Below, in pieces: positions 3,813 through 6,046 of a DNA stretch of 7,164 nt. This DNA is from Faecalicoccus sp. (lineage in GTDB: Bacteria > Bacillota_I > Bacilli_A > Erysipelotrichales > Erysipelotrichaceae): NCBI GenBank assembly GCA_017941505.1, contig JAGAWH010000101.1, forward strand, positions 1 through 7,164. Direction: 5' to 3'. The first letter of the stretch is position 1. Each line of letters opens with the position of its first letter. Position numbers and translations under genes: made by a program. Under the pieces are notes generated by a model, which searched no databases, was not told the DNA's origin, and saw only the letters and a program-made list of their open reading frames with translations.

Positions 3813-3861
3813 AACACCTTTTGACTTTATTTTAGAAATTTTAGTCAAAAGGTGTTTTTTT
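3813..3861 (+). terminator. Rho-independent terminator after tyrS
   Basis: AACACCTTTTGACT (3813-3826) pairs perfectly over 14 bp with AGTCAAAAGGTGTT (3843-3856). The loop is 16 nt and T runs on to 3861. On the minus strand the stem is followed by an AT-rich tail, so it may also stop leftward transcripts coming from the element to its right. Confidence 0.93.
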
Positions 3862-3907: not shown

Positions 3908-3928
3908 CGTAGAGTGTCCCAATCTACG
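3908..3928 (+). repeat. Left 21-bp inverted repeat (candidate recombination site)
   Basis: CGTAGA (3908-3913), spacer GTGTCCCAA (3914-3922) and TCTACG (3923-3928). The arms are perfect inverted copies of each other. The whole 21 bp recurs exactly, as reverse complement, at 5245-5265. Identity stops sharply at both edges. The arm-spacer-arm form resembles a tyrosine-recombinase core site, with the asymmetric spacer setting direction. Confidence 0.9.
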
Positions 3929-3952
3929 ATTGTATTGAATATTGTCGTTTGA

Positions 3953-3981
3953 ATTGTATCTTACATATCAAATTTTGTAAA
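3953..3981 (-). promoter_or_regulatory. Outward-facing promoter just inside the left repeat
   Basis: On the minus strand TTTACA (3981-3976) is followed after 17 bp by TACAAT (3958-3953); each hexamer differs from consensus by one base. Transcription would start near 3946, cross the left repeat and run toward the tyrS terminator, where no minus-strand gene lies. If the segment were inverted it would read across the right repeat into the vWA gene. Confidence 0.5.
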
Positions 3982-4003
3982 CTTCATGACTAAGAATTAC
4001 AAT
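3975..4003 (+). promoter_or_regulatory. Probable integrase promoter
   Basis: TTGTAA (3975-3980), 17 bp, then TACAAT (3998-4003), with a start expected near 4010, about 47 nt before the integrase ATG. Its -35 overlaps the -35 of the minus-strand promoter almost completely, so the two divergent promoters should compete for polymerase. Confidence 0.45.
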
Positions 4004-4011
4004 ACTATTTT

Positions 4012-4045
4012 TTCAAAAGATATTCGAAAAGGATTCCCGGAAAAG
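4012..4045 (+). repeat. Three TTC...AAAAG repeats at 11-bp period upstream of integrase
   Basis: TTCAAAAG (4012-4019), TTCGAAAAG (4023-4031) and TTCCCGGAAAAG (4034-4045) begin exactly 11 bp apart, placing them on the same helix face. They lie between the proposed integrase promoter and its ribosome site and could bind the integrase or a repressor. The third copy runs into the GAGGTG ribosome site. Confidence 0.4.
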
Positions 4046-4056
4046 AGGTGATCAAC

Positions 4057-5178
4057 ATGCCTAAAAAGGGTAAAAATATTTATCTCAGAAAAGATGGAAG
4101 ATGGGAAGGAAGATATATTAAAGAACGAATCAACGGTAAAACAAAATATGGATATATATTTGGAAAAAGCTATGAAGAAGTAGAAATAAAATTAGATAAT
4201 ATTTCTGCCTTTGCGAATATTGCTGGTCTATCGGAAGCTTATTTATTTGTTGATTTAGCTAATAGTTACCTATCTTTCAACTCAGTACAATTGAAACCTT
4301 CAAGTATCGCAAAATACACAAATATGTTGAACACCTATTTAATCCCTAGATTTGGAAATTTGTCTGTCACAGATATTACACGTGCACATGTTTTACAGAT
4401 GTCACAAGATTTACTCGTATCAGGAGGAAGTAAATCAAAGGGATTATCTCCAAAAACGGTAAATAGTATCTTATCTCTTTTAAAGAATATCTTTGACTTT
4501 GGATATCGTGAAAAAGAATTACAAGTTCCGGATATACGTAATATTTCTGTGAAACAGCCACAAAAACCATTACGTATTCTTAGTAAATTAGAGCAGCAGA
4601 GACTAAACCAATATCTTACTAACAATGTTTCACCATGTAATCTAGGGATTCTTGTATGCATGTATACAGGTCTAAGAATTGGAGAGCTTTGTGCATTAAA
4701 ATGGGGAGACATTCATTTATCAGAGAAATATATTTATGTGCATCAAACAATGCAGCGTATTCAAATTATGGATAAATCAGACTACAGCACTACTATCATT
4801 ATTCAATCACCGAAAAGTGACTGTTCCATCCGAATCATTCCATTGCCGGAAGAGCTGGTAAACATATTGATAAATGAAAAGAAAGAGGATAGCGCATTTC
4901 TGCTGACAGGGTTGGATACGAAATTTATGGAACCAAGACGATTGGAATATCGTTTTAAAAAAATCATAAGTGAATGTGAAATAGAAAATGTGAATTTTCA
5001 CGCCCTAAGACATACCTTTGCGACACGCTGCGTAGAGCTTGGATTCGATATTAAAAGTCTAAGTGAAATTCTGGGACACGCTAATGTAAATATCACATTA
5101 AATCGATATGTACATCCATCTATGGAACTAAAAAAGGAAAACATGGATAAGCTAAGTCAACTTTTGACTACAAAATAA
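4057..5178 (+). CDS. Tyrosine recombinase / phage-type integrase
   Basis: The 373-residue protein has three expected parts. A short basic N-terminal segment (about 5-50, KKGKNIYLRKDGRWEGRYIK) is typical of arm-type DNA-binding regions in Firmicute integrases. A helical core-binding domain spans about 64-155. The catalytic domain spans about 170-365. All active-site residues are visible: Arg207 (TGLRIGEL), Lys253 (SPKS), His315 and Arg318 (HALRHT), His341 (LGHAN) and nucleophile Tyr351 (NRYVH). It should therefore cut and rejoin DNA through a 3'-phosphotyrosine. Start ATG 4057 is preferred because GAGGTG (4045-4050) precedes it by 6 nt; GTG 4048 lies within that site. The gene is intact, has its own terminator, and is enclosed by 21-bp inverted repeats, which are its likely DNA sites. 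No excisionase, relaxase or phage gene accompanies it. Confidence 0.95.
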   Translation: MPKKGKNIYLRKDGRWEGRYIKERINGKTKYGYIFGKSYEEVEIKLDNISAFANIAGLSEAYLFVDLANSYLSFNSVQLKPSSIAKYTNMLNTYLIPRFGNLSVTDITRAHVLQMSQDLLVSGGSKSKGLSPKTVNSILSLLKNIFDFGYREKELQVPDIRNISVKQPQKPLRILSKLEQQRLNQYLTNNVSPCNLGILVCMYTGLRIGELCALKWGDIHLSEKYIYVHQTMQRIQIMDKSDYSTTIIIQSPKSDCSIRIIPLPEELVNILINEKKEDSAFLLTGLDTKFMEPRRLEYRFKKIISECEIENVNFHALRHTFATRCVELGFDIKSLSEILGHANVNITLNRYVHPSMELKKENMDKLSQLLTTK

Positions 5179-5180
5179 GC

Positions 5181-5208
5181 CGTCATTTCAACCGTCAAAA
5201 AAGCGTCA
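5181..5208 (+). repeat. Three CGTCA repeats spaced 11-12 bp
   Basis: CGTCA occurs at 5181-5185, 5193-5197 and 5204-5208, directly after the integrase stop and before the right repeat. The spacing of about one helical turn suggests possible protein-binding sites. The third copy lies partly in the terminator stem, so chance cannot be excluded. Confidence 0.35.
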
Positions 5209-5244
5209 AGCACACTTTAAATACAGTGTAATCGACGCTTTTTT
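5197..5244 (+). terminator. Integrase terminator abutting the right inverted repeat
   Basis: AAAAAAGCGTC (5197-5207) pairs over 11 bp with GACGCTTTTTT (5234-5244), and an inner stem ACACT (5212-5216)/AGTGT (5225-5229) closes the apex. The final T touches the first base of the right repeat. It should stop integrase transcripts before the vWA gene. The A-run on the other side gives it a T-tail on the minus strand too. Confidence 0.87.
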
Positions 5245-5265
5245 CGTAGATTGGGACACTCTACG
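5245..5265 (-). repeat. Right 21-bp inverted repeat (candidate recombination site)
   Basis: This is the exact reverse complement of 3908-3928: CGTAGA (5245-5250), TTGGGACAC (5251-5259), TCTACG (5260-5265). Outside it, the sequence shows no further similarity to the left flank. The segment TTGGGACA reading outward is loosely like a -35 element, but I see no well-spaced -10 for it. Confidence 0.9.
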
Positions 5266-5318
5266 GATAATATGTATGGTAATCGGTTTCTATGACACAT
5301 CACTGGTATTGAAAATAT

Positions 5319-5324
5319 TATAAT
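5319..5324 (+). promoter_or_regulatory. Possible basal -10 element for the vWA gene
   Basis: A perfect TATAAT lies 68 nt before the vWA start codon, but no good -35 is found at 16-18 bp upstream and there is no TGn extension. It may give weak transcription independent of the neighbouring segment. The rest of 5266-5392 is AT-rich and shows no gene or terminator. Confidence 0.3.
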
Positions 5325-5392: not shown

Positions 5393-6046
5393 ATGTCAAA
5401 TTCAATTCAATCAAATACTATTATTCCAGTTATTTTTGTACTGGATACATCCACTACAAACAATGAATGGATGAGAACAATGGTAAATAATTCTATTCAA
5501 CATCTTCTAAATTTTCATAAAAATAATTCTTCATTTCAAAACAATATTTATATCGGAATTCTTCATTCCGATAGGTGGATCACAGGTAATCAATTAATTC
5601 CTGTTCAAGAACTTTCCAATATAGATGTTTCATTAAATCGAAAGGGCTCTCTTAAAGATATTGCTGAGACTGTATCACAATCTCTGACAAAGGAAAACTT
5701 CTTTAATTTTGATAAGGATTTTATGCAGCCATCGATTGTTTTTTTGACAAATGGGGAATCATTCGGAATGAATATTTATCTTAGATCAGCTTTTAATCTT
5801 CTTTGGAATAATGAAATCTATCGGTCGTGCCAACGATTTATAATTAGCTCTCAAGGATTAAAAAATGAAGAAGTATATGTAAATCTGGTTCATGAAGGAA
5901 CATACATAGATATAATCGATCATGCATCTGTTACAGATGAACTTGTTTCTGATTTACTGACGAATCAATGGTGTGATACAAAAGTTGATATCGAAGATAA
6001 GTATAAGGATGCTATTAAAATACGAGATATCATTATTGCCGAATAA
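5393..6046 (+). CDS. Orphan TerY-like von Willebrand factor A domain protein
   Basis: The 217-residue protein is essentially one vWA domain. The first strand IIPVIFVLDTSTT (10-22) gives a metal-ion-dependent adhesion site (MIDAS) of DxSxT type (Asp18, Ser20, Thr22). KGSLKDIAETV (84-94) fits the position of the conserved Thr, here Ser86. PSIVFLTNGESFG (113-125) matches the usual 'LTDG' strand, with Asn120 where Asp is normal. The length fits TerY-type proteins, which elsewhere work with a PP2C phosphatase and a kinase in stress or tellurite-linked signalling. None of those partners is in the window, so function is unknown. No signal peptide or membrane segment is seen. GGGAGG (5379-5384) lies 8 nt before the ATG. 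The gene sits 127 nt outside the right inverted repeat and converges with the radical SAM gene. Confidence 0.72.
   Translation: MSNSIQSNTIIPVIFVLDTSTTNNEWMRTMVNNSIQHLLNFHKNNSSFQNNIYIGILHSDRWITGNQLIPVQELSNIDVSLNRKGSLKDIAETVSQSLTKENFFNFDKDFMQPSIVFLTNGESFGMNIYLRSAFNLLWNNEIYRSCQRFIISSQGLKNEEVYVNLVHEGTYIDIIDHASVTDELVSDLLTNQWCDTKVDIEDKYKDAIKIRDIIIAE

Follow-up and report, generated by a model that had tools for sequence, protein, structure and literature searches.

The Hin segment of Salmonella holds the gene of a serine invertase and an outward promoter inside the segment that is inverted. Fim-type switches and the RecV/Cdi switches of Clostridioides difficile have their enzyme gene outside the invertible segment. 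Bacteroides capsule loci combine an invertible promoter with an UpxY antiterminator. A section of PMC5903667 gives the lengths of the fim and mad invertible segments as 296 and 266 bp and describes, for the fimbrial region of Providencia stuartii, a putative 844-bp invertible segment enclosing a recombinase ORF between imperfect 14-bp repeats. At the pneumococcal locus cod/Spn556II, as treated in part of PMC4948785, the tyrosine recombinase PsrA inverts DNA between copies of IR1, and psrA is situated between hsdSB and hsdSC; it would therefore be enclosed whenever hsdSB and hsdSC are the genes that contain the IR1 copies. Sections of PMC11892184 report inverton group 139 with invertase group 35 in gut Clostridia (32 of 33 invertons came from Clostridia, and inversion was seen in reads), and link the UpxY antiterminator to the invertible promoters of Bacteroides capsule loci.

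The window, by which we mean the whole stretch of DNA analysed (7,164 nt of contig JAGAWH010000101.1, Faecalicoccus sp.), very probably contains a self-encoded invertible-promoter cassette at positions 3908–5265. Like the Hin segment, this cassette has a recombinase gene and a predicted outward promoter inside the inverted segment; it differs in that its enzyme is a tyrosine recombinase, and in its sites, chemistry and family. With fim-type and RecV/Cdi switches it shares the tyrosine recombinase, the inverted sites and the putatively invertible promoter. The fim-type layout, with the recombinase gene outside, does not apply, since the window integrase lies between the sites. The window unit of about 1.36 kb, enzyme included, also differs in size from the fim/mad segments (296/266 bp).

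The only gene identified between the two window sites encodes a tyrosine recombinase, in one intact ORF at 4048–5178 on the forward strand, as the initial annotation had held. The ORF begins with GTG; ATG 4057 is the probable start and agrees with the length of 373 aa that is common among homologues. The product matched the Pfam families PF00589 (Phage_integrase, E = 1.1e-26) and PF14659. The residues Arg, Lys, His, Arg, His and Tyr, which we take to be the active-site pattern of tyrosine recombinases, were invariant among 21 aligned relatives (picked by hand), and the catalytic domain together with these residues places the window integrase among the tyrosine recombinases. Membership in the Hin/serine invertase family was rejected, as the protein had no serine resolvase domain and matched only tyrosine-recombinase/phage-integrase families. 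A Tn916/Tn1549-type mobile element was likewise rejected, with the integrase alone identified inside the ends and no transfer or mobilisation genes. The nearest solved proteins were the 'Int protein' chains 6EMY–6EN2, presumably the Tn1549 transposon integrase. This relationship, like the presence of inverted termini around a recombinase, speaks for a one-gene mobile element that inserts next to genes and whose inverted ends would be the repeats, an explanation weighed further below.

A repeat search of the window returned inverted arms of 22 nt at 3908–3929 and 5244–5265, 100% complementary and with 1314 nt between them. The initial annotation had described a perfect repeat of 21 bp (3908–3928 and 5245–5265); its perfection was upheld, but its length had to be corrected to 22 bp. 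With up to three mismatches allowed, the 21-mer occurred only twice in the window, and not at all in 200 dinucleotide shuffles. The left recombination site (3908–3929) reads CGTAGAGT-GTCCC-AATCTACG plus A, and the right site (5244–5265) is its perfect inverted copy with an identical spacer, so that the cassette has the two inverted sites with matching spacer of an inverton. The site arms agreed with the family consensus at 15 of 16 positions. No tRNA gene that could serve as an attachment site was found within the window.

Just inside the left site lies a candidate outward promoter on the reverse strand (TTTACA-17-TACAAT, 3953–3981), which aims at the tyrS side in the present orientation and would face the 217-aa gene once inverted. 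Its score of 11.3 is among the weaker ones (family median 13.8), and by sequence the window copy is a weak example of a promoter pointing out from the segment (p = 0.045 versus shuffles). Across the window region, seven promoter-like sites were found against 8.8 expected, which is not above chance. A candidate integrase promoter (TTGTAA-17-TACAAT, 3975–4003, forward strand) is a consensus match only, at 9 of 12 positions. Downstream of the integrase, an imperfect hairpin followed by a T run is terminator-like (5197–5244, forward strand; arms 5197–5219/5222–5244, 83%). A second hairpin, between tyrS and the left site (3813–3856; arms 3813–3833/3836–3856, 86%), is likely a terminator and may also terminate transcription from the outward promoter. 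Neither hairpin was called by the strict terminator scan. Three CGTCA repeats, 11–12 bp apart (5181–5208, forward strand), may represent arm-type binding sites; among 48 elements of the family, 13 have CCGTCA in their right end.

To the left of the cassette lie a T-box leader and then tyrS. The leader (2332–2524) is immediately upstream of tyrS and belongs to ordinary tRNA synthetase gene regulation. To the right, the presumed target, a 217-aa gene adjoining the site (5393–6046, forward strand), is followed by a radical-SAM gene on the opposite strand. The 217-aa protein was rejected as a member of a known family, as no Pfam or NCBIfam family was found for it; three clusters were found among about 5.8 billion proteins. 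Its low-confidence model (pLDDT 56.5) had many vWA domains among the best PDB matches, suggesting a vWA-like fold. A separate promoter for this gene may lie outside the site (5292–5321, ATGACA-18-TATTAT), which would count against the switch reading; the spacing of this sequence changes in the related locus L001.

In the mechanism that we propose, the tyrosine recombinase would bind both sites, which are partly palindromic and mutually inverted, and exchange strands across the short spacer, flipping the 1.36-kb segment together with its own gene. Inside the segment, at the end upstream of the integrase, lies a predicted outward-facing promoter. As the segment now stands, this promoter would face away from the 217-aa gene, toward the tyrS side (presumably OFF); after inversion it would lie about 170 nt upstream of the 217-aa gene and transcribe it (presumably ON). 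Transcription of the integrase would end at the terminator-like hairpin before the right site. We infer that the window integrase flips the segment in living cells of Faecalicoccus sp., and that expression is affected.

An integrase scan of genome contigs gave three loci (L001, L002 and L003). L001, the window's nearest relative, in a MAG titled Erysipelothrix rhusiopathiae RUG11795, had the same locus, orientation and 22-bp sites as the window, with one additional 460-aa gene between tyrS and the cassette. L002, in a MAG titled Lachnospiraceae bacterium, encoded an integrase 47% identical and had sites of its own in the corresponding places, 25 bp long and 96% complementary; its cassette adjoins a gene that starts with an apparent signal peptide (by eye). 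Between the window and L001, all 44 of 44 site bases and 72 of 74 positions of the promoter segment (3930–4003) were conserved, compared with 79/119 in the 120 nt left of the site, 109/126 in the leader right of the site and 49/64 in the right inner end. L001 has the same outward TTTACA-17-TACAAT promoter (p = 0.03) and two of the three CGTCA repeats; the -10 box of the candidate integrase promoter was not exactly kept. The integrase genes were identical at 960 of 1122 positions, with a dN/dS of 0.11. A dead or frozen relic, in which an ancestral inversion left a window copy that no longer switches, would agree with the orientation common to the window and L001 and with the weaker window promoter. 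The conservation of sites and promoter segment over the surrounding DNA, the low dN/dS and the intact active-site residues argue against it, and we regard a relic as highly improbable.

Whole-genome searches detected relatives of the integrase in 8/195 genomes of the family of L001 (E 1e-60), 19/299 of the family of L002 (E 1e-90), 13/26 of the genus of G310 (E 1e-80), 2/5 of the genus of G059 (E 1e-80) and 17/391 of the class of L002 (E 1e-75); these counts include the genome searched from, and several searches scored only some candidates per genome. A protein search with the integrase gave 4092 clusters at E 1e-80 among 7998 candidates scored. In total, 80 integrase loci (31 + 29 + 20) were examined for flanking repeats. 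L062, which shows the sites and ORFs of L041 around its cassette, was left out, and L003 and the remote or partial integrases L007–L011 also lay outside the 80; scans of L003 (integrase 28% identical) and of L007–L010 revealed no flanking repeat.

Flanking inverted repeats enclosed the integrase at 66 of the 80 loci (27, 22 and 17 in the three batches). The repeat of L068 was off-motif, and those of L134 and L142 were weak, with scores of 16 and 14, or 16.5 and 15.5 in the shuffle control. Among the 14 exceptions, five were cut by a contig end and kept one site (L042, L103, L122, L124 and L128), eight had no accepted flanking repeat despite enough flank (L054, L057, L065, L090, L120, L121, L144 and L148; 8/80), and L143 had none, with only 107 nt on one side. 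Of 70 loci with sufficient flank, 63 scored at least 17 in that control, against 0 of 700 shuffles (highest shuffle 15); the loci scoring lower were L054, L057, L090, L120, L121, L134 and L142. Outside this control were L143, L144 and L148, which lack a flanking repeat, as well as L062 and short-flanked loci. The initial annotation had expected a self-inverting tyrosine-recombinase unit to be uncommon. The window cassette belongs to a large family, so that among its relatives such a unit is not uncommon.

A re-scan of 11 unflanked loci for short invertons that leave the enzyme outside gave one candidate, a distant and doubtful repeat pair of a different motif in L065. There, a perfect 21-bp inverted repeat (975–995/1279–1299, integrase-forward; 283 bp apart) lies just upstream of the integrase and is perhaps such a short inverton. 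Viral contigs provided 80 loci of 252 relatives; ten were inspected, and five had flanking repeats. An exact search of viral contigs for the site pattern returned one contig. The viral loci L152 and L153 were identical over 8434 nt and therefore show no polymorphism. Parts of the right flank of L152, a locus with no flanking repeat detected, correspond in reverse to the left flank of the viral locus L190, a further possible inversion. For 7 of 120 integrase relatives among the matches listed, the longest contig measured 1342–1407 nt, about one cassette. Contigs cut at both sites are expected where both orientations coexist in a sample, and these seven relatives are suggestive only.

Before spacers were counted, L068, L140, L142, L145, L149 and L150 were dropped by judgement as off-motif or weak. 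In the 60 elements in register, the family site was CGTAGAGT-NNNNN-ACTCTACG, with arms matching the consensus at 9 to 16 of 16 positions. The spacer was identical at both ends in 60/60 elements and took 49 different forms, whereas random pairing of left and right spacers gave a mean of 1.35 matches and at most 7; the agreement is favoured because the site pairs had been picked as inverted repeats. By position, the arms differed between ends in 0 to 18% of elements, and the eight central positions never did. Strand exchange requires a matching overlap between sites, and matched spacers with varying arms are, in terms of sequence, what exchange across such a must-match overlap would leave. No spacer recurred within any of the nine genomes with at least two parsed cassettes (25 cassettes: four each in G310, G504 and G509, three in G510, and two each in G002, G505, G506, G517 and G533).

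For a one-gene mobile element, spacers that vary between copies yet agree at both ends of each copy would be hard to accommodate. Moreover, inverted rather than direct sites do not yield an excised circle by simple site-specific recombination. The cassettes also keep their neighbours, both between the window and L001 (bar the extra 460-aa left gene in L001) and in the inverted pairs described below, and the closest G310 copies were 85 and 87% alike (L048/L051 and L047/L049) and had similar neighbouring DNA. What appears to be one cassette was present in two genomes from two different family searches (L041, 7803–9213; L062, 7694–9104), as mobility would predict; however, these two loci have a much longer region in common, beside a gene with an rRNA adenine dimethylase domain (Erm-like by eye), so that the cassette can travel as a passenger. 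On this evidence a mobile element is disfavoured and very unlikely. A further explanation is that the segment does invert, but through a different recombinase encoded elsewhere in the genome, much as RecV serves several switches. Additional integrases do occur in the L001 and L002 genomes, and enzymes acting on several switches exist (section of PMC5903667); against this, every cassette contains its own enzyme of the integrase family, and we consider a foreign recombinase unlikely. Inversion by the enclosed enzyme remains our preferred reading.

We scanned 150 nt inside each end of 48 elements, namely the flanked ones of the first two batches (31 + 29 loci) without L068, with the third batch outside the scan; weights came from the general sigma-A-type consensus, and 200 shuffles served as the control. 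On the outward strand of the left end, upstream of the integrase, 47 of 48 elements had a sigma-A-type promoter scoring at least 9 (median 13.8). Such scores were reached in 8/48 on the inward strand of the left end, and in 0/48 outward and 4/48 inward at the right end. The outward promoter had p ≤ 0.05 against shuffles in 44 of 48 elements (p > 0.05 in L044, L063, L064 and L067), and eleven of the 48 contained an exact TTGACA-17-TATAAT. Its -10 box was 23 to 41 nt from the site in 46/48 (48 nt in L067, 62 nt in L044). An outward promoter within the cassette makes a gene switch likely.

A crude ORF call had the first right-hand gene reading away from the element in 33/43 cases and the first left-hand gene in 16/47; this call misplaces some genes, such as those of L049 and L101, where protein search placed the NusG-like gene otherwise. 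We then analysed 74 right-side proteins (up to three per locus from the right side where ORFs ran away, plus L042). They included 10 NusG, 4 sugar transferase, 2 CpsB/CapC and 2 Wzz matches (25 of 76 families listed), and other matches among those listed were glycosyltransferases, SpaA and FctA pilin domains, signal peptidase, PP2C and FHA. With the L047 NusG-like protein as query, 19 of the 48 elements had such a gene within 500 nt, all of them in the G310 genus. All 19 genes read away from the cassette, with the predicted promoter toward them in three (L049, L110 and L126) and away in 16. As judged by these protein matches, cassettes in related bacteria precede surface-polysaccharide and other surface genes. 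In L040 (1014–1352), L041 (7241–7669) and L046 (1886–2230), a helix-turn-helix gene directed away from the cassette was seen on the left, and in L043 (8399–8719) on the right, in integrase-forward coordinates and labelled by eye except in L043; it is possibly a regulator or an alternative target.

When flanks were compared, using matches no farther than 1500 nt from the site, six pairs of loci had their two flanks matched crosswise while the element itself aligned in plus orientation; in five pairs the order of the two flanks was conserved. A spacer is shared by four of these six crosswise pairs: L049/L101 (element 89% identical, flanks 90 and 86%), L116/L117 (92%; 95 and 87%), L110/L112 (82%; 88 and 88%) and L064/L067 (75% over 262 nt; flanks 83 and 75%, starting 671 and 1039 nt from the site). 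Because L049/L101 and L110/L112 occupy the same chromosomal locus in four genomes, these pairs represent three loci; the remaining crosswise pairs, L049/L112 and L101/L110 (elements 74 and 77%), are cross-comparisons at that shared locus. As L064 and L067 had p > 0.05 in the promoter scan, one inverted pair lacks a convincing promoter. Base-level alignment of L116/L117 and L049/L101 showed that the sequence outside the left end of one matches that outside the right end of the other, whereas inside the element left matches left, with the change at the site. For L116/L117 this alignment is the evidence, as the quick ungapped identities were low because the two repeats had been trimmed unequally. 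L116 has a sugar-transferase gene on one side of the integrase and L117 on the other. Opposite orientations were thus observed between homologous loci of related genomes, while the window and L001, the genus of which comprised one genome, agree in orientation.

Since the inverted loci come from different genomes, they record a past inversion or opposite independent insertions rather than switching in culture. Site anatomy, matched spacers, cassettes inverted at homologous loci of relatives and the family-wide position of the predicted promoter can be read directly from the aligned loci. The proposal of the initial annotation that the window holds a tyrosine-recombinase counterpart of Hin gained support from the cassettes inverted between relatives, the change of homology at the repeat (two pairs) and the outward promoter. 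We lean towards seeing the family as a widespread Hin-like class of tyrosine recombinases that form autonomous, transplantable promoter switches, each with a private enzyme and a private 5-nt spacer as its address, so that several independent switches could operate in one genome with neither a master invertase nor recombination between switches. If so, Lachnospiraceae- and Erysipelotrichales-type bacteria would owe part of the phase variation in their capsule, pilus and other surface operons to compact one-enzyme switches, which could be found by sequence alone. The private spacers suggest a way for several switches to coexist in one genome, and the window offers a small test object of 2.2 kb that includes the enzyme, both sites, the promoter and the presumed target. 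Inverton survey tools have a length limit, and surveys restricted to short invertible segments could miss units of 1.3–1.5 kb.

No description of this cassette family was found in a search of mainly open-access literature, in which the first PhaseFinder survey did not come up, and the sections of PMC11868660 and PMC13343947 considered contained no enclosed tyrosine recombinase. The enclosed arrangement as such has precedents, a putative one in Providencia and, by deduction, one configuration of a pneumococcal locus. The Providencia stuartii segment is a published precedent for the window layout in that its recombinase is enclosed; it differs in its imperfect 14-bp repeats and its restriction to one locus, and the source section does not state the recombinase class. 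The cod/Spn556II locus, as far as that part of its source goes, shuffles parts of hsdS genes rather than a promoter, and psrA lies outside in the hsdSA–hsdSB IR1 inversion. Inverton group 139, compared with the window family by its description only, likewise has a tyrosine-type integrase close by; in the source sections, its two examples measure 205 and 227 bp inside, and the enzyme is nearby (within 5 kb or intersecting). The relatives of the window cassette resemble Bacteroides capsule loci in placing a putative switch ahead of a NusG-like antiterminator gene. They differ in phylum and in sites, and in the assignment of one private enzyme to each cassette.
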